This document shows, in pieces, positions 5,889 through 33,533 of a stretch of 36,295 nt of DNA. The notes beneath the pieces are model-generated. The model was not told the origin of the DNA. It made no database searches and saw only the letters and a program-made list of their open reading frames with translations. The stretch lies in IMG/VR virus record IMGVR_UViG_3300022701_000064, positions 1-36,295 of that record. One strand, written 5' to 3'. Position 1 is the first letter of the stretch, and each line of letters begins with the position of its first letter. A program made the translations under genes and the position numbers. Origin of the DNA: a virus.

Positions 5889-5895
5889 GTCCTAA
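5889..5895 (+). promoter_or_regulatory. GTCCTAA element upstream of tape-measure block
   Basis: One of six intergenic copies of GTCCTA. It lies 39 bases before the ATG at 5928, almost the same distance as the copy in front of the 21158 operon (40 bases). This suggests a shared late promoter element. Confidence 0.5.
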
Positions 5896-5927
5896 GATTA
5901 GAACCAGATTACCACCAATTTTGATGT

Positions 5928-6470
5928 ATGGCAAAGATTCCAGAGAGTATTATCAACCGTTTAAATGAACTGGCTCAGATTTATGCTCAATATTTATTTG
6001 ATAAAGCCTATAATCTTTTAAAGGAGAATAAATACAGAAATACCGGTCAGCTCCTGAACAGCCTCAAAGTTACCTGGCTGAAAGCTGATGAGAATTATCC
6101 TCCCAGGATTTTACTCATTTACCTGGAGTATGCTGATATTTTTGAGCAGAAAAAACTCTCATGGGTGAGGACACCACCACCGGAGGAGCTGATCAAATGG
6201 GTAATGGAAAAAGGGCTCCATAAATCAGGAAAGATCCCAGGATATACAGCAAATTCCAGGATTGGAATCAGTGACTATCAAAAAGCTCAGCGGATTGGCT
6301 GGGCCATATCCATTGATAAAAGGATTAATGATACTCATCAGCGGAAACCATGGAAACGCCAAACATTATCAGAGCTATTAAAGCAGATGAATTATGAAGT
6401 GCATGAGGCATTCAGGCAGGAATCTGAGCAGCTGATGGCAAATGCCCTGCAGGGTGGAATCATAAAATAA
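5928..6470 (+). CDS. Putative minor tail protein upstream of tape measure
   Basis: A 180-residue, basic and aromatic-rich protein without membrane segments. It opens a new transcription unit directly in front of the tape-measure gene, 7 bases away. The features visible are an N-terminal helix pair (SIINRLNELAQIYAQYLFDKA), a RNTGQLLNSLKV segment and a helical C-terminus. The 'TGQLLNSL' area is reminiscent of HK97-gp10-like tail-completion proteins, but I would not assign that family firmly. Position argues for a tail assembly role. Confidence 0.8.
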   Translation: MAKIPESIINRLNELAQIYAQYLFDKAYNLLKENKYRNTGQLLNSLKVTWLKADENYPPRILLIYLEYADIFEQKKLSWVRTPPPEELIKWVMEKGLHKSGKIPGYTANSRIGISDYQKAQRIGWAISIDKRINDTHQRKPWKRQTLSELLKQMNYEVHEAFRQESEQLMANALQGGIIK

Positions 6471-6477
6471 AATTATA

Positions 6478-8580
6478 ATGGCAGCACAGGCAAATATTGA
6501 AATTGTATTGAGCAACGGCCAGAAAGCCGGTGAAACTCTAAAGGAACTATTTAAATCAGCTAACAGGCTGAATAAAGAGATCAAAGATCTGAAACCAGGA
6601 TCAGAGGAGTTTATTAAAAAATCAAAGGATCTGCAGGCGGTAAATGCCAGGCTCAAAGACGTAAAAACCCAGGCATATGGAGTGAACCAGGCCACAAAAT
6701 CACTCTTGGGATCATTCAGCCAGTTTATCCCATTCGGAGGGCAAATCCAGGGGATCACCAATAAAATGGGAATGTTAAAGGGAGGAGTTGGAGGTGTGGC
6801 CAGCCAGTTTGGGATCCTGAGAACTGCCATCATATCCACCGGAATAGGGGCTCTGATTGTGATTATCGGATCCCTGGTGGCCATGTTCAAATCCAGTGAG
6901 GAGGGCCAGGATAAATGGAATAAAATCATGAAGGTGACCGGTGTGATTGTCGGAAACCTATCTGATATCCTGGCCAATCTGGGAGAGGTGATCTTTGATG
7001 CCATTGTTAATCCGGTGGATGCAGCCAAAAAAGCCTGGGAGGGATTAAAGAAATTTTTTACAGATCCTTTGGGAACCATAAAAGAGGGGGTCCAGGCCAC
7101 AAAGGATGCCATAAAGGGATTTGTTGAGGAAACAAAAAATGAGGTGAATGCTGCAGCTGAGGTGGCTGATCTGGAGGCTAAAACAAACCGTATTGAGAGG
7201 GAATTGCTGGTGGAACGCAAAAGGATTGAGGCTGATATTGCTGAGCTCCGGTTGAAAGCCAGGCAGGAGGATCAGTTTAATGCAGAGGAGAGGTTGATGT
7301 TTTTAGATGAGGCCAATCAATTGCAAAACAGGCTCCTGGATAAAGATCTGCAGATTGCTGAAAATCGGGCTGAAATTGTCAGGCAGACAAATGCATTCAG
7401 CAAAAGCACAAAGGAAAATTTAGATAAACAGGCCGAGGCTGAGGCCAGAGTTGAGGAGATCCAGGTTTCCAGATTGAATCAGCAACGACAAATTGAAAGA
7501 GAGAGGCAGAGAGTTTTAAAGGAGGTGGAAAGGAATGAAGCAGCTGCAGCAAAAGCAGCTGAGGAATCTGAGAAAAAGAAGCAGGAGGCCAGGGAGAAAG
7601 CTCTCCAGGATGAGGCAGAAGCTCAGCAAGCCATCCAGGATCTCCGGATTGAGGTCATGGAGGAAGGTATTGAGAAAGAGATTGAACTGATCAAGCTGGA
7701 TGCAGAGAGAAAGATCTCAGCTCTCAAGGGAACGGAGGAGCAGATCACTGATCAGAGGCTTTTAATAGAGATGATCAGGAACAGGGAAATCATGGCCATC
7801 CGTGATGAATATAGAAAACAGGAGGAGGAAAAAGAAAAAGAGCTGCAGGCCAAAAAAGATGAAATAAGGAAAAAGGATCAGCAAAGAGAAATGCAAGCTC
7901 TGGAGGGCACACTGGCATTTGCCTCCAATACTTTTGGGGGGATGGCTCAACTGTTCCATGAGGGATCAGTGGCATATAAATTTTTTGCGATTACCCAGGC
8001 CGAGATTGATACTATCCAGGCAAGTATTGCTGCCTATAAATCCACCGCTGCCATCCCAATTGTGGGCCCAATCCTGGCTCCCATTGCAGCCGGTGTGGCG
8101 TTTGCATTTGGCCAGGCGAAGATCGCGCAGATCCAGGCCAAAGAGGTGCCAAAAGCATCCAGAGGATGGATTGCCAGAGGCAGAACTCATGCCCAGGGTG
8201 GGATCCCTGGAATGGTATCCAGCACCGGAGAGCCGGTTGAGTTTGAAGATGGGGAGATCATTCTCACCAGGGGAGTGAGCCAGGATCCTGCCGGCATGGC
8301 TGCAGCCAGTGATCTCAATGCCAGATATGGAGGGATCCGATTTTTCCAGGCAGGTGGGCCGGTGAATCCACTCTCCCAGGCTCCCGGATCCGGATCAGCT
8401 CCAGGATCTATTCAATCAGAGATCTCCTCCAGGAGTGATGCCAATATTGTGAGAGAGCTCCGGGAGATTAAAACCATTGTGAATGCCTGGCCAACAAAAT
8501 TGCAGGTGAATAATAATCTGCAGGATACCAGGGAGGGATTGAACACGTTAAATAAACTGGAATCTGAGAGTAATTTTTAA
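6478..8580 (+). CDS. Tail tape-measure protein
   Basis: A 700-residue protein with the standard tape-measure layout. There is a helical N-terminus, then a hydrophobic segment at about residues 117-137 (rich in I, G, V, A). A very long charged coiled coil with many E, K, R, Q and A follows at about 225-480. A second hydrophobic Ala/Gly/Pro-rich stretch lies near 515-560, and the C-terminus is glycine-rich (GWIARGRTHAQGGIPG, FEDGEIILTRG). It fixes tail length and is injected with the DNA. At the usual 1.5 angstroms per residue it predicts a tail of roughly 100 nm. The gene follows a new promoter element and precedes a small DUF6527-like gene. Confidence 0.93.
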   Translation: MAAQANIEIVLSNGQKAGETLKELFKSANRLNKEIKDLKPGSEEFIKKSKDLQAVNARLKDVKTQAYGVNQATKSLLGSFSQFIPFGGQIQGITNKMGMLKGGVGGVASQFGILRTAIISTGIGALIVIIGSLVAMFKSSEEGQDKWNKIMKVTGVIVGNLSDILANLGEVIFDAIVNPVDAAKKAWEGLKKFFTDPLGTIKEGVQATKDAIKGFVEETKNEVNAAAEVADLEAKTNRIERELLVERKRIEADIAELRLKARQEDQFNAEERLMFLDEANQLQNRLLDKDLQIAENRAEIVRQTNAFSKSTKENLDKQAEAEARVEEIQVSRLNQQRQIERERQRVLKEVERNEAAAAKAAEESEKKKQEAREKALQDEAEAQQAIQDLRIEVMEEGIEKEIELIKLDAERKISALKGTEEQITDQRLLIEMIRNREIMAIRDEYRKQEEEKEKELQAKKDEIRKKDQQREMQALEGTLAFASNTFGGMAQLFHEGSVAYKFFAITQAEIDTIQASIAAYKSTAAIPIVGPILAPIAAGVAFAFGQAKIAQIQAKEVPKASRGWIARGRTHAQGGIPGMVSSTGEPVEFEDGEIILTRGVSQDPAGMAAASDLNARYGGIRFFQAGGPVNPLSQAPGSGSAPGSIQSEISSRSDANIVRELREIKTIVNAWPTKLQVNNNLQDTREGLNTLNKLESESNF

Positions 8581-8581
8581 A

Positions 8582-8845
8582 ATGAAAATAAAAGTATTTA
8601 TTGATAATCCGGGTTACCAGCTCTTTTATTGTCCAGGTTGTAAAGAATGGCATGTTATTGATCACCGGTGGGCATTTAATGGGAATATTAAGAATCCCAC
8701 TTTTAATCCATCATATAAAGCCACCGATCCAGATGGGAAAATCTGCCATTTATTTATCAGAGATGGAAAGATTCAATATTTGAATGATTGTTATCATTCT
8801 TTGAAGGGTCAAACCATTGATATGGTTGATGTAAGAAACATTTAA
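8582..8845 (+). CDS. DUF6527-like small metal-binding protein
   Basis: An 87-residue protein with FYCPGC near the start, WAFNG and NPTFNPS in the middle, then CHLFIRDGKIQYL and DCYHSLKGQTI. That order of motifs matches the phage family DUF6527. The two CxxC-like cysteines plus CH and DCYH would bind a zinc ion. Its function is unknown. It starts one base after the tape-measure stop and is the last gene before the convergent integrase. Confidence 0.8.
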   Translation: MKIKVFIDNPGYQLFYCPGCKEWHVIDHRWAFNGNIKNPTFNPSYKATDPDGKICHLFIRDGKIQYLNDCYHSLKGQTIDMVDVRNI

Positions 8846-10935: not shown

Positions 10936-11028
10936 ACAATGTTTTGCGTTTTTTGTTGTTATATTATTGCGTTATTTATATTTTAGATTGCGATTTAAGC
11001 AATAATTGTATCACGAAAAAAGCAAAAC
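10936..11028. promoter_or_regulatory. Divergent early promoter/operator region
   Basis: This AT-rich region lies between the repressor and the Cro-like gene. TTGCGTT occurs at 10944-10950 and 10967-10973, and ATTGC/GCAAT form an inverted repeat at 10987-10991 and 10999-11003. TATATTTT at about 10976-10983, with TTG about 20 bases before it, resembles a Bacteroidota promoter. These are the expected operators of the lysis/lysogeny switch. Confidence 0.6.
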
Positions 11029-11265
11029 ATGTGCCAAATGCCTGTAAATAAGATTGATGAGGTGATCCGGAGCCGAGGATTTAAAGAGCTAAAACCAACT
11101 GATGAACAGCTCAAAAAAATGGATACCTCTCTGAAAATGTGGAATAAATGGATCCTGAAAAAACGGGATCCGGAGCTTTATCAGCTGCCAGCCATCGCCG
11201 ATTTTTTAGGCTGCAGCATCTCTGAACTGGTTGGATCAAAACCAGTTTTAGTATCTGCCAACTAA
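11029..11265 (+). CDS. Cro-like small HTH protein
   Basis: A 78-residue protein at the head of the early operon, divergent from the repressor. The C-terminal half has a helix-turn-helix-like pattern (LYQLPAIADFLGCSISELVG), in which 'LPAIADFLGCS' fits the recognition part of an XRE domain. An alternative ATG at 11038 removes three residues. By position it should act as the early switch protein opposing the repressor. The domain match is by eye only. Confidence 0.75.
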   Translation: MCQMPVNKIDEVIRSRGFKELKPTDEQLKKMDTSLKMWNKWILKKRDPELYQLPAIADFLGCSISELVGSKPVLVSAN

Positions 11266-11277
11266 AAAAAATGAATC

Positions 11278-12367: not shown

Positions 12368-12369
12368 TT

Positions 12370-12579: not shown

Positions 12580-12595
12580 TTAACTCAAATAAACT

Positions 12596-21027: not shown

Positions 21028-21033
21028 GTCCTA
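21028..21033 (+). promoter_or_regulatory. GTCCTA element, distal copy of the 21158 operon
   Basis: It lies in the sequence TTACGTCCTA, repeated 90 bases downstream at 21118 in the context TTACGTCCTAA. It is 130 bases before the first gene of the late operon. A TTGACA word follows at about 21049. Confidence 0.5.
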
Positions 21034-21117: not shown

Positions 21118-21124
21118 GTCCTAA
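21118..21124 (+). promoter_or_regulatory. GTCCTAA element, proximal copy of the 21158 operon
   Basis: It reads TTACGTCCTAA, 40 bases before the ATG at 21158. This is the clearest copy of the shared element and the second of two in the same 184-base gap. Confidence 0.55.
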
Positions 21125-21157: not shown

Positions 21158-21772
21158 ATGAGCTACCTGGGAAACATATCTCTTTTTAGTGGTGACAATA
21201 TCGGAGGGATCCTGGAATTGAAAGTGGCCAGGGCCAGTGATATTTCAGATATTCCGGATCCGGTGGATGGAGTGGTGTATGGAAATATCACATTTAATCC
21301 AGGCAAAGGGTTTTTCACCTGGATGGCCACACGGGGATCCTCATCATTTTTGGGTGAGGGAAATAATACAAGTGATGGCCCTGTAAAGGAAAACTCACTG
21401 GATTTTGTATTGCCAAAGGATCAGCCTGGAATAAAAAGGATGTTGGAGCTGGCTGAGCAGGATGAGCTCATTGTATTATATAAGGATGCCAATGGCAATC
21501 AAAAGATATTCGGAGCCATCTCTGATCCGGTATATTTCACATTCAGCCAGGCAAGCGGAGAGAAAACAAACAACCGGAATGAATACCGGTGCCGGTTTTA
21601 TGCGGATGGTCCTGATAATAATTTCTTTTATAATGGATCCATTCCGGTGGCTCCAGGTGGAACAGCTCCAGCCATTGTAAAATCAGGAGATGGAACAGTG
21701 CTGGCAACTCTCTCTCCTGGCCAGATTTTCACATTGACCAGCCCATTTACCACAGGATATAAAATCACATAA
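21158..21772 (+). CDS. Second tail-tube-like protein
   Basis: A 204-residue beta-rich protein. It can be laid out collinearly with the tail-tube protein at 29740: GDNIGG against QDNMGG, a G-ITF/ITL strand, KGFF/KKWF, TRGSS/TRGTG, the LDFVLPKDQ and CEFKFPGD strands, VLYKDANGNQKIFG against LIGRDPQGNYRILG, and NNFFYNG against PPLFYEG. It also has about 40 extra C-terminal residues. It leads the receptor-binding operon, so it may form the tube end or a minor tube component. Confidence 0.7.
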   Translation: MSYLGNISLFSGDNIGGILELKVARASDISDIPDPVDGVVYGNITFNPGKGFFTWMATRGSSSFLGEGNNTSDGPVKENSLDFVLPKDQPGIKRMLELAEQDELIVLYKDANGNQKIFGAISDPVYFTFSQASGEKTNNRNEYRCRFYADGPDNNFFYNGSIPVAPGGTAPAIVKSGDGTVLATLSPGQIFTLTSPFTTGYKIT

Positions 21773-21773
21773 A

Positions 21774-22589
21774 ATGGCTTTAACATATCAGGAGGTTTTG
21801 GATTTAATAAACAATTTGCTGCCGGATAATACCACTCAGCAAATATCAGAGAAAGATCTCCGGGATGTGGCAACTGCCATTCTGGACCGAACAAACCAGA
21901 GTAATATTGAGGATTTAAATATTGAATGGGATGTGGCCACCACTTATGCCCTGGATGAGATTGTAACCTATCTGGATAGGATATGGAAAAGTAAATCAGC
22001 CGGCAATGTTGGCCATCAGCCTCCATCAGATCCAGGAATCACAGAGAATACATACTGGATTGAACAGTCCAGATCTGAATCAGTAAACTTCCCGGAATGG
22101 TCTGCAGGGGTGTACGGATCCGGGCTGATCATTGTCTATTATAACAACCAATTATATAAACTCAATGTGGGGACCAGGCCATTCAATTCCACTAATATAG
22201 TGAATGAGATTGCTGCAGGGGATTGGCGTTTATTAACAGGGATATTGAACCTGGGCACCCTAACCGATGGAGCCACAGTGAATCTCAATTGCTTAAATGC
22301 TGAACAGGCCAAAGCATATTGGAGCACAGCTCAATCAGCTCCAACACTTAATTTATCTGGCCTGGGAAAGATTGCTGATGTAAGCATAAAAAAAACTATT
22401 TCCGGGGATTCAGTAGTAACAATCCAGGGAACGGGATACAAATTTATTAATATGGATAATAAAACTTTGCCAGCTACCTCCGTAAATATAACCTTATCAG
22501 ATTCGGTAAATTTTTTCTTTGAGATATCATTGAAATATTCCGGAATTACTGATGGAGGATCAAAAGTGATTTTAATTCAATATAAATAA
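21774..22589 (+). CDS. Tail fibre / receptor-binding protein with two CBM-like domains
   Basis: A 271-residue protein starting one base after the tube-like gene. Residues about 1-50 are a helical attachment part. Two small aromatic domains follow: about 51-98 (WDVATTYALDEIVTYLDRIW ending in YWIEQ) and about 109-155 (WSAGVYGSGLIIVYYNNQLY ending in WRLLTG). Both follow the pattern of CBM5/12 chitin/glycan-binding modules. The remaining 115 residues are a beta-rich domain. It probably binds the host surface glycan. Confidence 0.75.
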   Translation: MALTYQEVLDLINNLLPDNTTQQISEKDLRDVATAILDRTNQSNIEDLNIEWDVATTYALDEIVTYLDRIWKSKSAGNVGHQPPSDPGITENTYWIEQSRSESVNFPEWSAGVYGSGLIIVYYNNQLYKLNVGTRPFNSTNIVNEIAAGDWRLLTGILNLGTLTDGATVNLNCLNAEQAKAYWSTAQSAPTLNLSGLGKIADVSIKKTISGDSVVTIQGTGYKFINMDNKTLPATSVNITLSDSVNFFFEISLKYSGITDGGSKVILIQYK

Positions 22590-23243
22590 ATGCTATTACG
22601 CCGGCACTATAAAACAGAAAACCCATTTACTCCAGCTCAGCTCAATCCGCATATATGGCTGGATGCCTCAGATCTTTCCACTTTTGTTTTGAGTGGGATT
22701 GATGTCAGCGAATGGCACAACAAAGGATCATCAACATTCAAAATGATTCCTTATAATGGAACCCCAAACAGGGGATACCTGGGAGGAAAAGTGGGAGTAA
22801 GATTTGCTCAATACAATACCACCTGGAGCCTCATCAGTGATGTGATCCTGCCTTGGGATTGGAGTACAAATCCTCAAACTCATTTTGTGGTAACATATAG
22901 TTATGCAGATTCTAATCTATATCAATATTTGGCTGGAATAGATAACCAGGTAGATTCCCTGATCAGATTTGTTCAATCCACCGGCCATTTTACATTGTGG
23001 GCTGGAGGAGAGGTGGCCATAATCAGAAATTTTCCTTTTGCAGTGATTAAGGCTGGATATGCTTACACATCCGGATCCGGTGATTATTCAAGCAATAAAC
23101 TGGTATTAGGGCATAGAGGGGGATCTTCAATATTTCCATGGGGTGGAGCAATATATGAGTATTTAGTTTTCAGGGATACTTTATCAGCTAACAATGTAAG
23201 CAAGGTAATGAGTTATTTAAATACAAAATGGGGGATTACTTAA
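22590..23243 (+). CDS. Concanavalin-A-like (LamG-type) lectin tail protein
   Basis: A 217-residue protein immediately after the tail-fibre stop. The opening IWLDASDLST, middle GVRFAQYN and end AIYEYLVFRDTLSANNVSKV... (L)NTKWG match the laminin-G-like lectin fold found in many phage and bacterial glycan binders. It has no signal peptide, as expected for a virion protein. It likely works with the preceding protein in receptor recognition. Confidence 0.75.
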   Translation: MLLRRHYKTENPFTPAQLNPHIWLDASDLSTFVLSGIDVSEWHNKGSSTFKMIPYNGTPNRGYLGGKVGVRFAQYNTTWSLISDVILPWDWSTNPQTHFVVTYSYADSNLYQYLAGIDNQVDSLIRFVQSTGHFTLWAGGEVAIIRNFPFAVIKAGYAYTSGSGDYSSNKLVLGHRGGSSIFPWGGAIYEYLVFRDTLSANNVSKVMSYLNTKWGIT

Positions 23244-23256
23244 ATCAAATTTAATT

Positions 23257-23706
23257 ATGGCTTTAACATTAGAACAAAGGATCAATCTTTTTAAGGGATT
23301 TTATTCACCTGGGAATAATGCCCTGGGGGAGAATTGGATGGAATTGCTGATCACTGCAGCTGCCATGGATTATGCAACTAATTTTTTATTGAATGTGATT
23401 GATTTTCCACTGGAGAGCAGTGGAAATCCTATCAATCAGAATGCGAATAATTATAAAAATTCAATGGTAAGCCTATGCAAAGCAATTGTGAATTTTGAAA
23501 GATTTCAGAATCACTCTATCCTGAATAGTTTAAAGAGAGTATTTACAACCGTGGTGGGATTATCCAGCTATACTCCAGCACAGATCTCCGGAGCTGATTG
23601 GAGCCAGTGGGAAACCTTTGCCCTAAATAATATACAGGAGGTTTGTGAAATTATGGCCGGAGTTTTACCGGTTGAAAAATCTGAATATGAATCATTATTG
23701 CCATGA
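23257..23706 (+). CDS. Hypothetical protein of the receptor-binding operon
   Basis: A 149-residue helical protein (MALTLEQRINLFKGFYSPGN) with no recognised family. It overlaps the next gene by ATGA. Its place after two receptor-binding genes suggests a fibre accessory or chaperone, which is inference. Confidence 0.75.
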   Translation: MALTLEQRINLFKGFYSPGNNALGENWMELLITAAAMDYATNFLLNVIDFPLESSGNPINQNANNYKNSMVSLCKAIVNFERFQNHSILNSLKRVFTTVVGLSSYTPAQISGADWSQWETFALNNIQEVCEIMAGVLPVEKSEYESLLP

Positions 23707-24488
23707 GAAATAAAAATCTTTTATTTTATCTCACATCAGGGATCCTGGCAGGGATCATCCTGGTATTTATATTCCTGGCCAGCTGCCAGCCACCGGAGGC
23801 CAGGGCCAGGGCATTCACGGTGAAATTTTCTCTCCAGGATACTATGTTTGGAAACCTGGATCCTGGAGATGGGATCTGGACACATCCAATTGATTCCGGA
23901 GCTGGGCTCTGGCTGGTTTGGGATCGGGGATCCCTCCAGGCTGATTCAATTCTCACCACATATGGAAATCTGAAAGATCTGAAAATCACTCTGGATGAGG
24001 GCACTCATCAGATTGATTTATATCCGGATTCAATCCCTATTCATGGAGCATATCAATACTGGAATTTTTCTCAGGTTTGGCATTTAAAGGAATCAACCCA
24101 AATCATGCTGATTTATCCGGATGGCAGGGATCAGTTTGCAGTGCTCCTGGATACTGTTCACACCTGGGATTTTAGGGTGGCTAATACTCATCATGAATTC
24201 AGATATCAATATTATAAATGGGGTGAGCCATCTCCATACTGGCCTCATTATGAAATGGATTTTTATGGAGGATTACCGGGATTTGATTCCACCAGGTATC
24301 TGGTGAGATTGGATACTGGATTCCAGGATATTGATACAACATTCATGGAGGGGGAATCAGTGGTATTTCAAAGAAAATTAAAACCGGGGAAAATTTACCC
24401 TGCATATTATATCATACAATGGGCTCTGGGATTTCATGTGATCAATAAATTTTCCATGGATTTTGAGCCGGCAATGATAGCGAATTGA
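23703..24488 (+). CDS. Predicted lipoprotein, possible virion or lysis component
   Basis: A 261-residue protein. The hydrophobic start (residues about 7-27) ends in LASC, a lipobox (cysteine about residue 28), and the rest is rich in Trp and Tyr and strand-like. It is exported and lipid-anchored in the host envelope. It lies between the receptor-binding genes and the lysis cassette. It might be an exclusion lipoprotein that blocks the phage's own receptor, but this is inferred from position only. Confidence 0.75.
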   Translation: MRNKNLLFYLTSGILAGIILVFIFLASCQPPEARARAFTVKFSLQDTMFGNLDPGDGIWTHPIDSGAGLWLVWDRGSLQADSILTTYGNLKDLKITLDEGTHQIDLYPDSIPIHGAYQYWNFSQVWHLKESTQIMLIYPDGRDQFAVLLDTVHTWDFRVANTHHEFRYQYYKWGEPSPYWPHYEMDFYGGLPGFDSTRYLVRLDTGFQDIDTTFMEGESVVFQRKLKPGKIYPAYYIIQWALGFHVINKFSMDFEPAMIAN

Positions 24489-24637
24489 AAGAGATCATCC
24501 AGGTTAATATCATCATTAATGTGGATCCCAAAACCAGGGATTTTTCCATCCTTGAATTGATTGTAAAGCTCATGGATCATCTCTTTCCGGATCAATATGA
24601 GATCAAAACAAAGAAAAAAAATATAAAATCTGATTGA
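24485..24637 (+). CDS. Small TTG-start protein, 50 residues
   Basis: A 50-residue frame beginning with TTG that overlaps the previous TGA (TTGA at 24485-24488). The product reads MKEIIQVNIIINVDPKTRDF and ends in a lysine-rich tail (EIKTKKKNIKSD). It fills an otherwise empty gap exactly between neighbouring genes, with typical codon use. No family is recognised. I am confident it is a gene, less so of its start. Confidence 0.65.
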   Translation: MKEIIQVNIIINVDPKTRDFSILELIVKLMDHLFPDQYEIKTKKKNIKSD

Positions 24638-24640
24638 ATT

Positions 24641-24907
24641 ATGGCCAATGGAAATGGGAACGGATACAACGGATCAAAAAATGCCACAGCTGTAATGAAT
24701 ATTTTATTAGTTATTCTGGCAGCCATTTTAACTGGCCTTTTTTCTCTTTTATTAGATATCCGTTCTGATGTAAGATCAATGAATACTGATATCAAATCAA
24801 ATTCTTTAAAAAATGTGGAGCAGGATGGCAAGCTCAATCAGTATGGGAATGACCATCTCCAATTCCGGGAGGATCTCAGAGAATTAAAATCATACCATAA
24901 AAAATAA
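24641..24907 (+). CDS. Small membrane protein with coiled-coil tail (lysis cassette)
   Basis: An 88-residue protein with one transmembrane segment at about residues 18-39 (NILLVILAAILTGLFSLLLD) and a charged coiled coil after it (DIRSDVRSMN, then QFREDLRELKSYHKK). The topology is like an inner-membrane spanin subunit or a holin partner. Located just before the holin-like gene and endolysin, it belongs to the lysis set. Confidence 0.75.
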   Translation: MANGNGNGYNGSKNATAVMNILLVILAAILTGLFSLLLDIRSDVRSMNTDIKSNSLKNVEQDGKLNQYGNDHLQFREDLRELKSYHKK

Positions 24908-24914
24908 AGATATC

Positions 24915-25121
24915 ATGAAACCAAAAAATCCAATTACCTCAATCATCGGGATTATCGTTGGATTGCTCCCGATTATTGCACTTTTATTCCCTCATCTGTT
25001 TGGTATTGATTGGGCAGCTGAGGGATTTGTTGAAAAGATTTCTGCAGCTCTCCTGGGCCTTGGAAATGAGATCACTGCAGCGGTCCTGATATTTAAAGCA
25101 GGTGACAAAGGAGGCTGGTAA
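24915..25121 (+). CDS. Putative holin
   Basis: A 68-residue protein with two hydrophobic segments (about residues 5-28 and 40-61) separated by a short loop (GIDWAAEGFVEK). Its size and two-helix topology suit a class II holin that perforates the inner membrane and releases the endolysin. Its last base is shared with the start of the endolysin gene (TAATG at 25119-25123), which supports the role. Confidence 0.75.
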   Translation: MKPKNPITSIIGIIVGLLPIIALLFPHLFGIDWAAEGFVEKISAALLGLGNEITAAVLIFKAGDKGGW

Positions 25122-25633
25122 TGGCTCATGTTTTTGGTGATCGATCTGAGAGAAACCTGATCACCTGCCATCCGGATCTCCAGGAGATTATGAGGCAGGC
25201 TCTCCGGATCTCTCCCATAGATTTTTCCATCATTTTTGGCCACCGGCCAATGGAGGAGCAATTTGATCTGTATAAACAGGGCCGATCCTATAAAAATGGA
25301 AAATGGGTGATCACTGATAAAACAAAGGTTGTCACCAATATTGATGGATACCGGATCCAGGGAAAGCACAATCTTGATCCATCGGAGGCGGTTGATATCA
25401 TGATATATACTCCCAGCCATGATGATCTGGCCTGGGATCCGGAACATCTCAGCCATGTGGCTGGGGTAGTGATTGCCGTGGCTGATCGATTGCTCCAGGA
25501 GGGCCGGATTGCTCACCGGATCCGGTGGGGTGGAAATTGGGATGGAGATGGAATCATCCTGAGGGATCAGAGGCTCATGGACCGGCCACATTTTGAGATC
25601 ATCACTGATGATCAGGATATATTCCATGCATGA
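25121..25633 (+). CDS. M15-type endolysin (L-alanyl-D-glutamate / D-Ala-D-Ala peptidase fold)
   Basis: A 170-residue enzyme that cleaves the peptide part of peptidoglycan. The metal-binding pattern of the M15/VanY family is present: GKHNLDPSEAVDI with His83 and Asp92 (H-x6-A-x-D, with A90), and RPHFEI with His157. FGHRPMEEQFDLY near residue 40 is the conserved substrate-binding start. Trp-rich GGNWDGDG precedes the last ligand. There is no signal peptide, so it needs the holin. The next gene overlaps by four bases. Confidence 0.92.
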   Translation: MAHVFGDRSERNLITCHPDLQEIMRQALRISPIDFSIIFGHRPMEEQFDLYKQGRSYKNGKWVITDKTKVVTNIDGYRIQGKHNLDPSEAVDIMIYTPSHDDLAWDPEHLSHVAGVVIAVADRLLQEGRIAHRIRWGGNWDGDGIILRDQRLMDRPHFEIITDDQDIFHA

Positions 25634-26211
25634 GGGATCTCATCACAAATATCATTTTTATTGCCATTGTTTTCACCATTGGGATGGTGGCTGGATCCTC
25701 ATTCAGATCATGCTCCCATCAGCCAGGTGGCTCCATCGATACCATTGAAACCATCACCATCAAAACAGATACAATCTGGATGGATACCATTTTCATTCCG
25801 GTGCCTGGAGAGCCGGCACAGCTGATCAGCCAGGAGGAACCGGCCGGCCAGGATCTCCATACCTTTTATGATACCGTGAGAGTTTTCACTGGCCTCAATA
25901 AGATCCGGAGATACCATAAATCATTCAATGATACCTGGGCAAAAATCAATGCTGAAATCAGGGTCCATGGATACCTGATGGATCTGAGGATTGAATATGC
26001 CAATTTGAAACCGGATATCCTGCAGACCAAAACCATTGAGAGGACCGTGATCAAGAGAGAGCCTCAAAGGGGTGTATTTATCGGAGCCCAGGGAGGATCT
26101 GATGTGCTTACCGGTGCCGGTTATCTCACTAAAAAAGGATGGTTTATCCAGTATAATTATGCTCCATTCACCCAGGGCCATTACCTGGGGATTTATAAAA
26201 AATTGTTTTAA
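25630..26211 (+). CDS. Membrane-anchored periplasmic protein of the lysis cassette (spanin-like)
   Basis: A 193-residue protein with one N-terminal membrane segment (residues about 5-25), a threonine/isoleucine-rich linker (IETITIKTDTIWMDTIFIPV), an ordered domain and a beta-rich C-terminus (GVFIGAQGGSDVLTGAGYLT). This layout is common next to endolysins in Bacteroidota phages. A role in outer-membrane disruption is plausible by position but not shown by a motif. Confidence 0.75.
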   Translation: MRDLITNIIFIAIVFTIGMVAGSSFRSCSHQPGGSIDTIETITIKTDTIWMDTIFIPVPGEPAQLISQEEPAGQDLHTFYDTVRVFTGLNKIRRYHKSFNDTWAKINAEIRVHGYLMDLRIEYANLKPDILQTKTIERTVIKREPQRGVFIGAQGGSDVLTGAGYLTKKGWFIQYNYAPFTQGHYLGIYKKLF

Positions 26212-26608: not shown

Positions 26609-26694
26609 AATATCATGTTTTTTAGTTCAGATTAAAATTAAAAACAATCTCAAAAAATAACACCATTCCACCTGGTTTATTATCGTCCTAAAAT

Positions 26695-26780: not shown

Positions 26781-28124
26781 ATGCATTGGGATTTATTATT
26801 CACGTATAAAGCCTGGGCACTTGAAACCAGCTTTTTTGAAAGGATGTATCCGGTGGTGATGGAAATGATCCGCAGCGGAGCTCCTCTCTCCAGGCTCAGG
26901 AAACTCAATCCAAATTTAAAAGAAAACAAGGCTCTCCAGATTGCTGAATTTGACCGGGAATCTGGTTTGTATCTCTTTGGAGCCTCCGGATCCAGTGATC
27001 CCTCCGTGGCATTTATCCCGGTCCTGGGATCCCTCACAAAAAGAGGTGATTTATGCTCATATGGCATGATGGATTATATCAAAAGGATCCAGAGTGCAAA
27101 CAAATCAAAGAGAGTGGATTCCATAGTAATTGAGATGGAGAGCCCTGGAGGCACCGTGGATGGCACTCCCGAATTTGCAAAAGTGGTCCGGGAGAGTGAA
27201 AAACCGGTGGTGATCTTTGGGGATGGCCTGGTGGCCTCCGCTGCCTATTGGGTATCCTCCCAGGCTGATTTGATTGTGGCCAATGCTGATAATTACGTGG
27301 ATTTCGGATCCATCGGAGCTCTCTATGTATATGAAAACTGGAGTAAATACATTGAGAAAGAGATTGGAGAGATCCGGATCATCAGGGCTCCTCAGTCAAA
27401 GGATAAAGCTCTGATCAATCCCATTGAACCACTCACCTCAGATCAAGAGAAAGAGATCCGGGATGAGCTCAGGACCATCACAGATTTTTTCATTCAGACC
27501 GTGAAAGCCGGCCGGGGTGATAAACTCAATGCTGATGATAAAGAGATATTCACCGGCAAAATGTTTGATAAAGAGAGATCCCTGGAGATGGGATTGATTG
27601 ATTCCATCGGAACTCTCCAGGATGCCATTGATGCCTCATATCTCCTGGCACATAGCAATAAAGGAGGAAACTCCAAATCTAATACACAAAGTAAAAATAT
27701 GAAATTCCCAAAACTCAGCTCTTTATTCGGCAAGGCCGAAGAAGAAGCACATTCAGAAGATCTTTCAGCTGAGGAGCAGGCTTCTTTGGAGGCCATTGAA
27801 ACAAAGCTGGCTGAAAATGAAGAGCAGGTAAACGGCCTGCAGGCACAGATCTCAGATCTGGAAAATCAAATCAGTACACTTAACCAGGAGAAAACTTTGC
27901 TCCAGGAGCAGATCTCTGCAAAGGATCAAGAGATCCAGGATCTCCAGGATCGATTGGCTAAAAAGCCGGCCGGTGAGGCCACCACAGCATTGAGCAATCA
28001 GGATCAGGGTCCGGAGTACAAAGAAACAAAGGAGGATCAGTTCAGAACCAGCCTGGATGATGAGGCTGATCAATACCGGGCCATGAATGGCAAACCAAAG
28101 GAGGCTGAGGCCCAGGAAAAATAA
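26781..28124 (+). CDS. S49-type prohead protease with fused C-terminal scaffold domain
   Basis: A 447-residue protein. Residues about 75-290 are a SppA/ClpP-like S49 peptidase: MESPGGTVDG (about 119-128), the catalytic serine Ser153 in VASAAYW, and a catalytic lysine likely at K207 or K209 in APQSKDKA. The remaining residues form a long coiled coil (EQVNGLQAQISDLENQISTL) and an acidic end, as expected for a capsid scaffold. The protease trims the scaffold and capsid during maturation. An internal ATG at 27699 could give the scaffold alone. Confidence 0.93.
   Translation: MHWDLLFTYKAWALETSFFERMYPVVMEMIRSGAPLSRLRKLNPNLKENKALQIAEFDRESGLYLFGASGSSDPSVAFIPVLGSLTKRGDLCSYGMMDYIKRIQSANKSKRVDSIVIEMESPGGTVDGTPEFAKVVRESEKPVVIFGDGLVASAAYWVSSQADLIVANADNYVDFGSIGALYVYENWSKYIEKEIGEIRIIRAPQSKDKALINPIEPLTSDQEKEIRDELRTITDFFIQTVKAGRGDKLNADDKEIFTGKMFDKERSLEMGLIDSIGTLQDAIDASYLLAHSNKGGNSKSNTQSKNMKFPKLSSLFGKAEEEAHSEDLSAEEQASLEAIETKLAENEEQVNGLQAQISDLENQISTLNQEKTLLQEQISAKDQEIQDLQDRLAKKPAGEATTALSNQDQGPEYKETKEDQFRTSLDDEADQYRAMNGKPKEAEAQEK
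27699..28124 (+). CDS. Nested scaffold protein (internal in-frame start)
   Basis: ATG at 27699 (residue 307 of the protease gene) has a strong start context, TAAAAATATG, with AAGGAGG about 35 bases upstream. It would give a 141-residue protein, MKFPKLSSLFGKAEEEAHSE and the coiled coil, without the protease. A separate scaffold made from the 3' end of the protease gene is known in other phages (lambda C/Nu3). Here it is inferred. Confidence 0.5.
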   Translation: MKFPKLSSLFGKAEEEAHSEDLSAEEQASLEAIETKLAENEEQVNGLQAQISDLENQISTLNQEKTLLQEQISAKDQEIQDLQDRLAKKPAGEATTALSNQDQGPEYKETKEDQFRTSLDDEADQYRAMNGKPKEAEAQEK

Positions 28125-28156
28125 AGGAATTTAAAAACTCAAAACAGCATATTAAA

Positions 28157-29428
28157 ATGAAAAAATTTCTTGTATTATTTAATCTGATATTTTTCTCCTA
28201 TATCATTGGAGGGATTTTCTCAGCGTACACAGGAGCCTCTCCTTATGTGGCCATTCCATCAGTGGGATTGCTCAGCATTGTGAGTGCTCATTTTGTTACT
28301 GGATCCGGTTTTGCCTATGCATCCCAGGATTTATCAGCTCTGGCCAGGTATGCTCATCAATTCCAAAAGAGTTTGATTTCAACACTTGTGAATGGATTGG
28401 ATATTGCCATGGATATACCGGTGATTCCTAACATCAAAAGCTCACTGAAATTACCAAAAATTAAGGTGGGTGATGGCCTCAGGCCGTACAGTGCAAACAC
28501 TGAATTTTATACCGGGGATGTGGTTTATTCTGATAGGGAATTAAAGGTGGATATTGGAAAGAGGGAGATCCTGATTGATCCGGAGGCATACCGGCACACC
28601 TATTTATCCCTGGTGAACTCTCCTGGCAGCGGAGCAAATAAAATGGATATTCCATTTGCTCAATATCTCTGGAATGAGGTGATTAAAAACGTGGCCAGGG
28701 AGATAAATGATGAGGTGGCATATTTCGGGTTTGATAAAACCACTGCCACAGCTTACAGTGAAGCCTCAACCTATTCTCCTGGGGATTATATTACATATTC
28801 TCTGAACAGCATCACAGAGTATTATGTTTGTTTGACAGCTACCTCAGCCGGTGAGGATCCAGTGGATACTCCTGCCAAATGGCAGAAAGTAACGGCCAGG
28901 GCCGTGGTGCCTGGCTTAAAGGTGGCCATTGAAACTGCCATCTCCGGAGGTGGTTTGACTGCCACAGCCACCGGCCAGATTGATAATACCACCGGAAAAA
29001 AGGCTCATGCTGCATTCCTCAAATTGTTCCGGGCCATGCCGGTTCCATATAAGAGAGCCGGAGTGATCATTCATTGCTCCTTTACTGATTGGGAATACCT
29101 GATGGATGATCTGAAAACTCAGTTCCAATATACCGTGGCTGATATGAGCAACATGGTGCAAAATGGAATGCTCCCTCTCCCATTAACCAATGGCAGAGGA
29201 TTTGCAAAGCCAGCCACCTGGCTGGGATCATCCCGGAGGCTGATTGCTCAGCCGGTTGATGTGGCCAGGGCCAAAGGTATAAACCTGGTAATGGGTACGG
29301 ATCTTTTGAGTGATGCCAATGAGATCAAAACAAAGGAAAATCTCTGGACGTTGGAAGCAGGGATTAAATTTGTTTCTGGATTCCAGGTATCTGATCTGGA
29401 TGCCTTGAAAGTAGGTGATCAGAGTTAA
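28157..29428 (+). CDS. Major capsid protein with inserted CBM-like domain and hydrophobic N-terminus
   Basis: A 423-residue protein placed directly after protease/scaffold. Residues about 1-50 are hydrophobic with two membrane-like segments, unusual for a capsid protein and probably removed by the protease. About 60-190 and 250-423 look like an HK97-type capsid (SLISTLVNGLDIAMDIPVIP; REILIDPEAYRHTYLS; FKFVSGF-like end). Residues about 196-247 contain YSPGDYITYSLNSITEYYVC, then PVDTPAKWQKV, a CBM5/12-like pattern similar to that in the tail fibre. It would sit as a surface loop. Confidence 0.85.
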   Translation: MKKFLVLFNLIFFSYIIGGIFSAYTGASPYVAIPSVGLLSIVSAHFVTGSGFAYASQDLSALARYAHQFQKSLISTLVNGLDIAMDIPVIPNIKSSLKLPKIKVGDGLRPYSANTEFYTGDVVYSDRELKVDIGKREILIDPEAYRHTYLSLVNSPGSGANKMDIPFAQYLWNEVIKNVAREINDEVAYFGFDKTTATAYSEASTYSPGDYITYSLNSITEYYVCLTATSAGEDPVDTPAKWQKVTARAVVPGLKVAIETAISGGGLTATATGQIDNTTGKKAHAAFLKLFRAMPVPYKRAGVIIHCSFTDWEYLMDDLKTQFQYTVADMSNMVQNGMLPLPLTNGRGFAKPATWLGSSRRLIAQPVDVARAKGINLVMGTDLLSDANEIKTKENLWTLEAGIKFVSGFQVSDLDALKVGDQS

Positions 29429-29439
29429 TTTGATTGATT

Positions 29440-29721
29440 ATGGCAGCACAGAAAAAAGATAAAAAGGTTTTAAAATTCCCGGTTTTCTCAGTGAAAGCCG
29501 GGAAAAAATCCAAAAAATTTGCCGTGGTATATCCCAAAATTGAGATACCCAGGATCAATAAAATGATCCCGGATCATGGCATTTTTACAGCTGAGCAGGT
29601 GGCCTCATCTCCCAGGGTGGCGGCCTACCTGGTGAAAATCGGATCCGGAGCCCTGATGGAGATTGCTGATGAGAGTGAGATTCAGGTGGATCCCGATCAG
29701 GAAAAAAAGGAAAGTGAATAA
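29440..29721 (+). CDS. Small basic protein downstream of the capsid gene
   Basis: A 93-residue protein from ATG at 29440; an upstream TTG adds two residues. The N-terminus is lysine-rich (MAAQKKDKKVLKFPVFSVKA), then a strand/helix domain with IFTAEQVASSPRVAAYLVKI and an acidic tail. The size and place between the capsid and tail-tube genes suit a head-tail joining or capsid-decorating protein, unproven. Confidence 0.75.
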   Translation: MAAQKKDKKVLKFPVFSVKAGKKSKKFAVVYPKIEIPRINKMIPDHGIFTAEQVASSPRVAAYLVKIGSGALMEIADESEIQVDPDQEKKESE

Positions 29722-29739
29722 TCTTTAAATTGAAATAAT

Positions 29740-30303
29740 ATGGCATTTGAGGATATTTTATGGACACAGGGTCAGGATAATATGGGTGGCCTGGTTGGTG
29801 ACCTTTATTTTGTACCCATTGAGGATATTGATTTCACCACTCCTCCCACACTGGATGCAGATGGAGTGACCATCTCAGGAGCCATCACCCTGAAAGCCTT
29901 GAAAAAGTGGTTCAGGATCTATCATACCAGGGGAACCGGTAAGATTGATGATAATGTGGTGGGTGAACGGGATGGCAGGAGTTTTGAGAATTTATGTGAG
30001 TTTAAATTTCCAGGGGATACAAAGGAGGTGATTGCTTTTAAGCGTCAGGTTTTAAATACTCCCATTGCCCTGATCGGGAGAGATCCTCAGGGCAATTACC
30101 GGATTTTGGGGATCACAGTGATCAAAAATCAATCCACCAGCCTGGATGAGCTCACTCTGGATTTCCCTGCATATATTGAGAGTGCTCCTGGCACCACCGG
30201 CCTGGGATCTGATGCCAAAGGGCATACATTCCAGGTAAAATGTGAGGCCATCTCTCCTCCTTTATTCTATGAGGGCACCATTGATCTGGATGCAGGAACC
30301 TGA
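29740..30303 (+). CDS. Major tail tube protein
   Basis: A 187-residue beta-rich soluble protein (MAFEDILWTQGQDNMGGLVG; KALKKWFRIYHTRGTG; IALIGRDPQGNYRILGI). The features are those of Bacteroidota phage tube proteins and it lies in the head-tail block. It has a longer, collinear relative in the 21158 operon. The tube forms the DNA channel of the tail. Confidence 0.78.
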   Translation: MAFEDILWTQGQDNMGGLVGDLYFVPIEDIDFTTPPTLDADGVTISGAITLKALKKWFRIYHTRGTGKIDDNVVGERDGRSFENLCEFKFPGDTKEVIAFKRQVLNTPIALIGRDPQGNYRILGITVIKNQSTSLDELTLDFPAYIESAPGTTGLGSDAKGHTFQVKCEAISPPLFYEGTIDLDAGT

Positions 30304-30306
30304 TAA

Positions 30307-30501
30307 ATGATGGCTAAGAAAAAACAAAACATATTACCTGAGGAGATTGCTGATGATTTCACGGTGGATCCAAAAGCTCCGGTGAGGTTTGCTCATCGGA
30401 GATATGGAGAGTATGATCTGAGAAAGATCACCCGGAATGCAGCTGATTTCCTGGCCAGTAAAAAAATCTATTTAAGTAGGGTGAACAAAAAGGATGATTG
30501 A
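30307..30501 (+). CDS. Small hypothetical protein after the tail tube gene
   Basis: A 64-residue basic protein (MMAKKKQNILPEEIADDFTV) with no recognised family. It starts three bases after the tail-tube stop and ends the operon before the terminator at 30542. A small assembly partner is possible from position. Confidence 0.7.
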   Translation: MMAKKKQNILPEEIADDFTVDPKAPVRFAHRRYGEYDLRKITRNAADFLASKKIYLSRVNKKDD

Positions 30502-30541
30502 TTCAGGCGGTAGGTAATTTTTTTCATGTTTTCTAGTTGAC

Positions 30542-30570
30542 AAGCTCCGGAGCTCTCCGGAGCTTTTTTA
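30542..30570 (+). terminator. Rho-independent terminator after head-tail operon
   Basis: AAGCTCCGGA (30542-30551) and TCCGGAGCTT (30556-30565) form a perfect 10-bp stem around the loop GCTC, followed by a T-run to 30569. It lies 41 bases after the last stop of the head-tail block and before the terminase block. Confidence 0.88.
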
Positions 30571-30572
30571 TG

Positions 30573-30578
30573 GTCCTA
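30573..30578 (+). promoter_or_regulatory. GTCCTA element upstream of the terminase block
   Basis: It reads ATGGTCCTATG, directly after the terminator T-run and 55 bases before the first ATG. Downstream GCGACT occurs twice (30585-30590 and 30610-30615). A packaging-site function is also conceivable here. Confidence 0.45.
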
Positions 30579-30627
30579 TGTTTGGCGACTTATAAGGGGT
30601 AATTTTTTAGCGACTAATATAAAAATC

Positions 30628-31266
30628 ATGCTCATTGATGTTGATCAGATATTAAAAGAGGCCAGGGAGGGAGAGAAAAATCCTGAGGATCCTGAGGTGA
30701 TCCAGGAGAGCCAGGTTGAATATATTGAGGCCGGCCAGATCAGGGCACCATCCATCCCGGATCCGGATCCTCCGGCCATCCAGGATCCCGGCCGGCAGGA
30801 TGAGAGATCCAGGCCAATCAAAGGAGATCTCCTGGCTGATCTTGCCATGGAGATGAAAAATCTGAGGATTGCCAGGGCCAGGCTCTCCAATAAATATCCG
30901 GAGATGGTCCGCAATGGTGCCTCAGCTCTGGATCTTATCTCAAATTATAAAGAGATTGAGAGCTATACCGAACAAATGAAAGAGGTATATTCCAGGAGGA
31001 GATTTATTGAAAGATATGGCAGGCTCCCTGATCCGGAGCCCAGGCAAGTGGATCCGGTGGAAAGCAATGATCTGATCAGGCTGAAAAAATACCGGAGATC
31101 CCTCAATGATAAGAAATGTAAGCTCAAAAGGAAGCTCCAGCCAAGTGCCAAAACTCCCAAAAATCCCTCCAGGATAACGGAGTGGGCTCTGGAGCTGGAC
31201 CAGGTTGAAGCAGAGCAAAAAAGAGTAATTGAAAAAATCAATCAGATAAAGGATAAATATGAGTGA
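30628..31266 (+). CDS. Hypothetical protein upstream of small terminase
   Basis: A 212-residue protein. The first 70 residues are acidic and proline-rich (IPDPDPPAIQDPGRQDERSR), and the rest is charged and helical with basic stretches (KKCKLKRKLQPSAKTPK). It overlaps the small-terminase start by eight bases. A packaging accessory role is possible. Confidence 0.72.
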   Translation: MLIDVDQILKEAREGEKNPEDPEVIQESQVEYIEAGQIRAPSIPDPDPPAIQDPGRQDERSRPIKGDLLADLAMEMKNLRIARARLSNKYPEMVRNGASALDLISNYKEIESYTEQMKEVYSRRRFIERYGRLPDPEPRQVDPVESNDLIRLKKYRRSLNDKKCKLKRKLQPSAKTPKNPSRITEWALELDQVEAEQKRVIEKINQIKDKYE

Positions 31267-31852
31267 AAATTTAATCATCCGGGATAAATCCCATTTGCCC
31301 AGGGAGGCAAAAAAAAAGCTGGATACCTCCTTTGATCGGATCTGGAAATTTTATTTTAAAAATAATGTGAGGATTGAACTCACCAAAAAGGAGGAGCAGC
31401 TCCGGGAGAGATGGGAGCATGTTTGGTCCTTATTAGGAAAAATTTTAACCACTCGCCAGGTAATTAAAAAACACTCTTTCAAATATAGTATTGATCTGAG
31501 CACTGCATATGAGGATATGCATAATGCAAAAAAATTATTTGGGGATTCCCAGGATCAAATGAAGAAAGCACAGAGGGCCATTGTGAGTGTGTGGCTGGAG
31601 AAAGCCATCAAAAAAGCATATAAAGCGGATGAATGGAAATCCATGGAAAAACTGATCCTCAGGTACACCCGGATCAATGGCCTGGATCTCAATGAGGGGG
31701 ATGGTATTGCTGATCTGATCAAAAAAATGAAGCCTCATACCATTATAATTACAGGGGATCCCAGATCATTAAAACAGGAGGCTGATGAGCTGATGGAGGG
31801 AGTGGAACAGGATCAGGATATTGGTTTTGAATTCATGGATCAGGATGATTGA
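31259..31852 (+). CDS. Putative terminase small subunit
   Basis: A 197-residue helical, basic protein directly before the large terminase, overlapping both neighbours. The segment TTRQVIKKHSFKYSIDLSTA looks like a helix-turn-helix that would recognise packaging-site DNA, and the C-terminus is acidic (EQDQDIGFEFMDQDD). Position next to the large subunit supports the assignment. Confidence 0.72.
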   Translation: MSENLIIRDKSHLPREAKKKLDTSFDRIWKFYFKNNVRIELTKKEEQLRERWEHVWSLLGKILTTRQVIKKHSFKYSIDLSTAYEDMHNAKKLFGDSQDQMKKAQRAIVSVWLEKAIKKAYKADEWKSMEKLILRYTRINGLDLNEGDGIADLIKKMKPHTIIITGDPRSLKQEADELMEGVEQDQDIGFEFMDQDD

Positions 31853-33323
31853 GCCGGTAAAAAAGAATTTTTATCTCAATCCCATTGCCAGGCTTTTTTT
31901 ATTGGCCAAACAATCAATAAAGGTTTTGATTGCCGGCCGGGGATTCAGCAAATCATTCACCAATGGGATCTCCATTCTGGTAAAAGTGGAACTCCTGCCA
32001 AAGAGCCGTGGATTGTTCCTGGGCCTCACTTATACTCAGATACTCACAAACACTCTCCTGCCTATCAAATCAGCCTGGGAATGGTTTGGATATTATGAGG
32101 GGATCCATTACGTGGTGGGGAAAAAGCCTCCGGAATGGTTTGATAAACCATACCAGAAACCGGAGAAATATGAGAATGTGATCACTTTCTGGAATGGCAC
32201 CACAATCATCATGGGATCTTTTGACCGGCCTCAGCTGATCCGGGGAGGCTCAAATGATTGGGTAATTGTGGATGAAGCTCTCCTCATCAAAAAGGATGTT
32301 TATGATCAGGTTGTGATCCCTACATTGAGAGGCTCTCACACGGTATTGAAAGACCGGCCAGGCCATCTCACTGAACAGTTTACAAGTACAATGCCATATG
32401 GATCCATAGGCCAATGGCTCCTGGAATTTGAGGAGAAAGCAAAGATCCGGGATAATGATGTATTTTTTATAACAGGAACCAGCTGGCACAATCGTGTGAT
32501 CCTGGGAGATAAGGTTCTGAACAGATGGAGGAGGACCATGCCAGCCCTGATCTACCAGGTGGAAGTGATGAGCAAAAGAATGATGAGGGCCGGGAATCTG
32601 TTTTATCCATCCCTCAGGGATCATCACTGGTATGAGGATTCCTTTGATTATGATTGGATTGATTCTCTGGGATTAGATATTGATGATAACAAAAGGGATT
32701 CCAGGTGGGATAAAGATTGTGATCCCTCCCTCCCATTACATATCAGCCATGATTGGGGAGCATTCAATGGGATTACCGTGGATCAGTATCATCAGGGATC
32801 CAATGAGGTAAGATTCATTAATGTGATGTATGTTCAGCATCCTGAGATCCTGGATGATCTGGCTGGTAAGTTTTGCAAATATTATCAGCATCATAAAAAG
32901 AAAACAGTATATCAGTGGGGAGATAAGTCAGGAGCTAAAAAGGAGGCTAATGCAAAGCTCTCATACTTCCAGCAATTTGCTAACATCCTGCAGAAAAATG
33001 GATGGAGGGTGATCCGGAAAAAGATTGGGGATGTATCTCACCTGGCCAGGCATAAATTTATCAGTGACCTGCATAAAGAGAGGGATTCCAGGATGCCCAG
33101 GATCAGGCATAATGCAAACAATTGCAAGGATCTCAGGATTGCCCTGGAGCTGGCCGGGATGAGGGGCGATAAAAAGGATAAGAGATCTGAGCTCAATCCA
33201 TCCATTAAACAGCAACATGCAACTCACCTCACTGATGCCTATGATTATAGATTATTCCATGGATTCCATGGTGTGAGCCTGGATACTCCAGATCCCAGCG
33301 GTGTATCCTTTGGAGGCCGGTGA
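31845..33323 (+). CDS. Terminase large subunit (ATPase and nuclease)
   Basis: A 492-residue enzyme starting at ATG 31845 inside an ATGATTGA overlap with the previous gene; the upstream in-frame ATG at 31821 adds eight unlikely residues. It contains the ATPase Walker A-like GRGFSKS (about residues 31-37) and Walker B WVIVDEA (about 139-145), then the RNase H-like nuclease with acidic residues in ISHDWG, GDKSG and HLTDAYDY. It pumps DNA into the prohead and cuts it at the end of packaging. Confidence 0.93.
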   Translation: MIEPVKKNFYLNPIARLFLLAKQSIKVLIAGRGFSKSFTNGISILVKVELLPKSRGLFLGLTYTQILTNTLLPIKSAWEWFGYYEGIHYVVGKKPPEWFDKPYQKPEKYENVITFWNGTTIIMGSFDRPQLIRGGSNDWVIVDEALLIKKDVYDQVVIPTLRGSHTVLKDRPGHLTEQFTSTMPYGSIGQWLLEFEEKAKIRDNDVFFITGTSWHNRVILGDKVLNRWRRTMPALIYQVEVMSKRMMRAGNLFYPSLRDHHWYEDSFDYDWIDSLGLDIDDNKRDSRWDKDCDPSLPLHISHDWGAFNGITVDQYHQGSNEVRFINVMYVQHPEILDDLAGKFCKYYQHHKKKTVYQWGDKSGAKKEANAKLSYFQQFANILQKNGWRVIRKKIGDVSHLARHKFISDLHKERDSRMPRIRHNANNCKDLRIALELAGMRGDKKDKRSELNPSIKQQHATHLTDAYDYRLFHGFHGVSLDTPDPSGVSFGGR

Positions 33324-33533
33324 TTCATATATCCCTCAATTAATCGCAAATAATCGCCAAAATGATAAAGCGGTCGGGAGTACGGAGTGACCAAAACCCT
33401 TTTATTTCAACATTCAGAGTGGTTAAAGATTTGGAGCTCATAAAATTGTTTATACCTTTTTCCAATCAGAGAAAGCCTTTTAAACGTCCTATTTTCACCG
33501 GTCCGGATCACTTAAAATTGTAAGGTGAAAAAA
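33324..33533. other. Leader gap with GTCCTA between terminase and portal blocks
   Basis: About 200 bases without a supported gene. It contains AATCGC twice (33342 and 33351), a CpG-rich patch with GGTC and GACC arms at 33372-33392, and GTCCTA at 33486-33491. It probably holds the promoter of the portal block. Confidence 0.5.
33486..33491 (+). promoter_or_regulatory. GTCCTA element upstream of the portal block
   Basis: It reads AAACGTCCTATTTTCACCGG, 48 bases before the chosen ATG at 33534 and 39 before an in-frame GTG at 33525, a distance like that in the 5928 and 21158 operons. Confidence 0.5.

Follow-up and report, generated by a model that had tools for sequence, protein, structure and literature searches.

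GTCCTA between the late genes of the window

We analysed a 36,295-nucleotide stretch of viral DNA (IMG/VR record IMGVR_UViG_3300022701_000064; hereafter the window), and in it the word GTCCTA, which an earlier reading of the sequence, the original prediction, had proposed as a shared late promoter element. Counted on both strands, GTCCTA occurs exactly six times, always on the plus strand, at 5889, 21028, 21118, 26685, 30573 and 33486. Five of these positions are those first reported, while the remaining copy had been placed at 26695. As had been claimed, all six copies lie between called genes, in gaps that together account for about 8% of the sequence. None was found inside a gene or on the minus strand, where many further copies would, by the terms of the original prediction, have refuted it. 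They precede the tail, 21158, head, terminase and portal blocks (Table 1), which match the tape-measure, receptor-binding/lysis, head, terminase and portal blocks originally named, and the early region (11029-20545) is free of the word, as stated there. The protease of the head block was named by its PHROG match, phrog_53.

The total number of copies is unremarkable (six, against a mean of 8.3 in dinucleotide shuffles); the unusual part is their placement. The plus-strand gap bias of GTCCTA was second only to that of poly-T among the 3557 hexamers observed (raw p = 4e-9), and the word and its overlapping neighbour CGTCCT were the sole words with at least four copies, all in gaps. No trinucleotide is depleted more strongly in this genome than GTC/GAC (observed/expected 0.26), in line with the strong GTC depletion noted earlier; restriction avoidance is one possible cause. 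A scan of the window for E. coli-type promoters returned 64 sites where 62 were expected and thus carried no information.

The start codon follows GTCCTA at 39 bases for site 5889, 40 for 21118, 39 for 33486 (to the GTG at 33525), 55 for 30573 and 96 for 26685. The first two are the 39-40-base distances to an ATG that had already been pointed out. A T-containing flank had also been reported for two copies, but only site 21118 reads TTACGTCCTAA, whereas site 21028 reads TTACGTCCTAG.

Table 1 GTCCTA sites, late blocks and the candidate activator gene in the window
Feature	Position	Strand	Remarks
GTCCTA, -33-slot element of the tail/tape-measure block	5889..5894	+	-7 box CAATTTTG at 5916-5923; predicted +1 at 5928, the A of ATG
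Tail block	5928..8845	+	tape measure 6478-8580
Candidate late activator, 142 amino acids	20545..20973	+	immediately upstream of the first late promoter pair
GTCCTA, upstream copy of the pair before the 21158 block	21028..21033	+	weak -7 box, 3/6
GTCCTA, proximal copy before the 21158 block	21118..21123	+	40 bases before ATG; weak -7 box CACATTCA, 3/6
Late block after the 21028/21118 pair	21158..26211	+	tail-fibre-like, lysis-like and accessory genes
GTCCTA of the head block (protease, capsid)	26685..26690	+	-7 box TATGTTTG at 26712-26719, 6/6; predicted +1 at 26724
Head block	26781..30501	+	maturation protease 26781-28124, putative major capsid protein 28157-29428, further genes
GTCCTA of the terminase block	30573..30578	+	right after terminator-like hairpin AGCTCCGGAGCTCTCCGGAGCTTTTTT; -7 box TAATTTTT at 30600-30607; predicted +1 at 30612
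Packaging block	30628..33323	+	large terminase about 31842-33323
GTCCTA of the portal block	33486..33491	+	-7 box TAAAATTG at 33513-33520; predicted +1 at 33525, the G of the GTG start
Portal block	33525..36210	+	portal 33860-35200

The same word before the late blocks of related phages

The named phage collection contained no close relative of this phage. Scans of viral contigs with one sequence at a time, either the terminase of the window or the protein of gene 20545-20973, the candidate regulator, returned nothing, and neither did tblastn searches against phages with this regulator and the capsid protein; thus, alignments were needed to reach relatives. With an alignment of three terminases we recovered three closer relatives among the viral contigs, L008 (G001), L009 (G002) and L010 (G003), whose terminases are 60%, 50% and 65% identical to that of the window, respectively. 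These genomes were picked by their terminase alone, and their orthologous late blocks are preceded by GTCCTA, mostly 39-43 bases before the start codon. In G003, the orthologue of site 5889 lies 39 bases before its ATG. The double site before the orthologue of the 21158 gene recurs as well, with its two copies 45-98 bases apart (G001r 7399/7444, G003 9884/9982 and G008 26055/26100). In G002, the terminase block has been relocated behind the tape-measure gene, and its site has been retained, 39 bases before the ATG. About 30 related phages and prophages, the flavobacterial isolates Leef_1 and Ingeline_1 among them, showed this arrangement ahead of the corresponding late blocks; a search of related prophages for the word had been suggested with the original prediction.

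That the word sits where it does in the window by mere coincidence is hardly credible. The total of six copies is within expectation, but the placement of the copies and their recurrence in relatives speak against chance, and the comparison with relatives already refutes coincidence.

Spacing between GTCCTW and a -7 box

An alignment of 23 GTCCTA sites from the window and its relatives revealed a second conserved element, with A at +28 and TTTG at +31 to +34 (the G of GTCCTA being 0). This element is, by its sequence, the Bacteroidota -7 box TAnnTTTG. It had been suggested that a longer shared motif be looked for on either side of the word; this motif was found downstream, beginning 27 bases after the G, and not upstream. 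The resulting build is GTCCTW (W, A or T), 21 bases, then TAnnTTTG. In the window, the -7 box matches at no fewer than five of its six positions at four of the six sites, and at three of six at 21028 and 21118.

We then compared 110 plus-strand gap sites in 30 phage sequences with the 365 other GTCCTW copies of the same sequences. The -7 score of the gap sites peaked only at a spacer of 21 bases (mean 4.28 of 6, against 1.0-2.5 at the other spacers from 10 to 35). At this spacer, a box of at least 5/6 was present at 61% of the gap sites but at only 7% of the other copies, and the difference between the two sets, spacers 21-22 taken together, had p = 1e-30. The commonest ATG offset from GTCCTW was 39, with a second peak at 55-56. 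In place of the host-type -33 box TTTG, the slot held GTCCTW. Consistent with this, 51 terminase-selected viral loci contained GTCCTW-N22-A-NN-TTT 83 times on the late-gene strand and 7 times on the other, while a permuted word gave 0.

In Flavobacterium johnsoniae, where the -33 box is weak, the -7 box is numbered T-12 A-11 T-8 T-7 T-6 G-5, transcription usually starts 4-5 bases downstream of it, and leaders exceed 10 bases in 87% of the transcripts with a probable promoter (PMC6847099). By this numbering, GTCCTW would span -39 to -34, that is, the -33 slot, and +1 would correspond to offset 39. The phage sites therefore resemble the TTTG/TAnnTTTG promoter of the Bacteroidota primary sigma factor (sigma-ABfr) in having the same -7 box, 4-5 bases before the predicted start, but differ from it in having an invariant GTCCTW at a fixed 21-base spacer instead of the weak host TTTG (PMC6847099). 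As judged from these alignments, GTCCTW-N21-TAnnTTTG is almost certainly a late promoter. The original idea of a phage-specific late promoter element is supported, with two amendments: the word is also found in other phages, and it is better described as a substitute for the -33 box than as an element standing by itself.

The predicted +1 falls on the start codon or about 16 bases before it. Since +1 at offset 39 coincides with the commonest ATG offset, many late mRNAs should be leaderless, and we predict leaderless or very short-leader late mRNAs. The nearly fixed distance to the start codon (39-43) could also be expected if GTCCTA acted in RNA, as a leader, processing or translation signal, and not as a promoter. 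Many sites have, in addition, inverted repeats near the start codon, longer than in shuffled sequence (mean arm 6.1 versus 4.7). However, the proposal that such repeats hide the start codon in read-through transcripts was not supported and is kept as no more than a lead, as sequestration was overall no greater than in shuffled upstream sequence (p = 0.11). Moreover, sites with the start codon at 55-56 hold the -7 spacing and not the codon spacing, and the fixed 21-base spacer to TAnnTTTG would place GTCCTA upstream of the transcription start. We thus regard a role in RNA as very improbable. Individual inverted repeats of 8-17 bases extend across the -7 box or spacer and the start codon (L154 9039, L162 1837, L170 28690, G001r 7444 and G008 26100), with a different sequence at each site.

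The location of the sites at block boundaries, together with the relocated G002 block that kept its site, would also fit a recombination linker between modules, or a packaging signal, with no role in transcription. Against this, strict orientation, the fixed -7 spacing and the 39-base spacing to the start codon are properties of promoters, and the flanking sequence differs between sites; we consider such a signal extremely unlikely. Terminator-like T-runs often end directly against GTCCTW (at 30530-30570 in the window and at many sites in the relatives), so the blocks seem to be terminated and then restarted. Late promoters of L104, L106, G001r and G003 repeatedly have the palindrome GCGATCGC close by, on their upstream or downstream side.

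Both the word and the spacer vary in some relatives. GTCCTT is the word of Leef_1, Ingeline_1 and Mea-Yong924-1, and the slot is kept with GTATTA in L105/G009 and with GTCTTT in L168. The Flavobacterium psychrophilum phage FPSV-F7 (L171) has the same promoter build but differs by GTCTTA and a 20-base spacer (GTCTTA-N20-TAnnTTTG at 6269, 7940, 16772, 23257 and 30050), with longer leaders. Changes of the word within a kept slot are expected of a phage-encoded reader, but they also follow phage descent, and may therefore be taken as supportive rather than decisive.

A linked phage gene as candidate activator

At E 1e-4, the four nearest phages have their structural and packaging genes in common, three of them also the integrase, and all four gene 20545-20973 (31-35% identical). 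Homologues of the latter were found, by alignment search, in five further viral contigs (L099, L101, L104, L105 and L106), in a Cytophagales bacterium prophage (L097) and in Rufibacter roseus (L098). They were present in 57 of the 390 genomes of the order of G004 and, phylum-wide, in 5 of 395 genomes at E 1e-5, so the family is best sampled in that order. An unbiased search for words enriched downstream of the homologues returned GTCCTA, GTCCTTT or close variants in most regions, with the same build on inspection.

We also scanned 390 genomes of one bacterial order with the full pattern, GTCCTW-N22-A-NN-TTTG-N4-8-ATG. Of the 149 matches listed, 46 shared their strand with a homologue situated no more than 35 kb upstream, where about 0.1 was expected; the opposite strand gave none. 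Matches away from homologues were scattered, their totals were similar to those of a reversed-pattern control, and no host regulon for the pattern was seen in the 390 genomes. In L150, L151, L153, L154, L156 and L162 the promoter site also precedes the homologue itself; a regulator gene with its own late-type promoter suggests positive feedback.

The AlphaFold2 model of the 20545-20973 protein (ten sequences, predicted local distance difference test score 88) has the order beta-alpha-alpha-beta-alpha-alpha, followed by helices. Residues 1-88 match a PDB chain that, from its length and PMC12117103, we take to be F plasmid TraY (Z 6.5 over 82 residues, 13-16% identity, Foldseek E about 1), a single-chain double ribbon-helix-helix DNA-binding protein (PMC12117103). 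The model suggests a tandem ribbon-helix-helix with C-terminal helices. The match is no more than suggestive: TraY resembles the predicted fold of these residues but differs in sequence and role, and the window protein has its extra C-terminal helical part. The Leef_1 homologue, Leef1_39, annotated as a hypothetical protein only, has the same predicted fold (template modelling score 0.88). The family had no significant match in Pfam, PHROGs, NCBIfam or PDB sequence searches, and a resemblance of the C-terminal helices to a sigma factor was dismissed because the match was negligible (Z 2.3). Among the 20 window proteins scanned, Pfam matched only a helix-turn-helix repressor and the integrase, with no match to MotA, of which very distant homologues could escape, nor to a phage sigma factor or RNA polymerase domain, of which remote forms could escape. 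From its gene linkage and modelled fold, the 20545-20973 protein is likely a phage late activator.

Our model, which we consider probable, is that GTCCTW and the host -7 box form a late promoter turned on by this protein acting in the -33 slot. GTCCTW would be the upstream half, followed by 21 bases, (T)AnnTTTG, 4 bases and the transcription start. The downstream half would be the -7 box that the primary sigma factor of Bacteroidota recognises, while GTCCTW, at about -39 to -34, would take the place of the weak host -33 box (TTTG). Host RNA polymerase alone would probably be unable to use these promoters. The 20545-20973 protein and its homologues probably bind GTCCTW, either next to sigma region 4 or as a substitute for it. 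Such binding would activate all the late blocks (lysis, head, terminase, portal and tail) at the same time. The sequence comparisons show where the sites lie, their fixed spacing, their conservation among phages and their linkage to the gene; DNA binding by the protein, activation, and leaderless or very short-leader transcripts are what we infer. More tentatively, and with slightly less than even confidence, we propose that the protein belongs to a new family of single-chain ribbon-helix-helix proteins and takes over from Bacteroidota RNA polymerase the recognition of the -33 slot, at promoters that start on the A of the start codon.

Several observations weigh against the model. The -7 boxes of sites 21028 and 21118 are poor, and site 26685 is far from its ATG. 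Three terminase relatives (L048, L058 and L083) have a weak homologue without a GTCCTW site, and two (L031 and L077) have a clear homologue without a strict GTCCTW match. The case for DNA binding comes from a predicted fold, and the best match of that fold in the PDB is modest. Finally, identity between the window protein and its homologues is only about 20-35%, and yet the core GTCCT stays constant; a conserved host partner could therefore be involved as well. This constancy would equally suit a real promoter whose GTCCTW is read by a host factor, a host alternative sigma or another phage protein, with gene 20545-20973 a mere neighbour; the early regions do hold other DNA-binding genes, such as those for the annotated LuxR-like proteins of Leef_1 and Ingeline_1. 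We find this unlikely. Across the 390 host genomes the full pattern is concentrated beside the phage gene and elsewhere is of the order of its control, and apart from gene 20545-20973 the four nearest phages share, at E 1e-4, no gene beyond the structural, packaging and integrase genes.

In the window, the gap before the activator gene (20143-20372) contains 12 copies of GTTACA/TGTAAC, against 6 in the rest of the window; this iteron-like array is possibly an origin, or an operator timing the activator. The interval 10936-11028, which separates the HTH_3 repressor from the early genes, has repeated TTGCG words and is a likely operator. An exact 99-base direct repeat at both ends (1-99 and 36197-36295) indicates that the genome is circular or terminally redundant, with 36,196 unique bases.

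The proposed logic has a known counterpart. In T4 middle promoters, a MotA box at about -30 is combined with the host -10 element, through sigma appropriation by MotA and AsiA. Both systems would place a phage box in the -35 zone and keep the host downstream element, a likeness of working and not of membership: the box, its position and the phylum are different, there is no family match, and GTCCTW serves late structural genes. Leef_1 and Ingeline_1 have the same promoter build as the window, and the paper describing them does not mention promoters (PMC8776804). In the open-access literature (subscription papers and preprints being outside the search), we found no prior description of the word, of late promoters in Bacteroidota phages, as originally claimed, or of leaderless phage genes. 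The combination of a phage factor with a host sigma is known; what appears new is the promoter code, along with the protein family and the leaderless late mRNAs that we predict for Bacteroidota.

Late-gene control in Bacteroidota phages is essentially undescribed in the literature searched. Our analysis yields a promoter code that can be tested and names a candidate activator; cultured phages have both. Late operons could be annotated from sequence, and a phage-controlled promoter could serve Bacteroidota genetics. The analysis also raises a direct question about leaderless translation: if the more tentative proposal above is true, ribosomes would read the structural genes from leaderless mRNAs in Bacteroidota, which lack Shine-Dalgarno sequences and of which the studied member has mostly leadered mRNAs.

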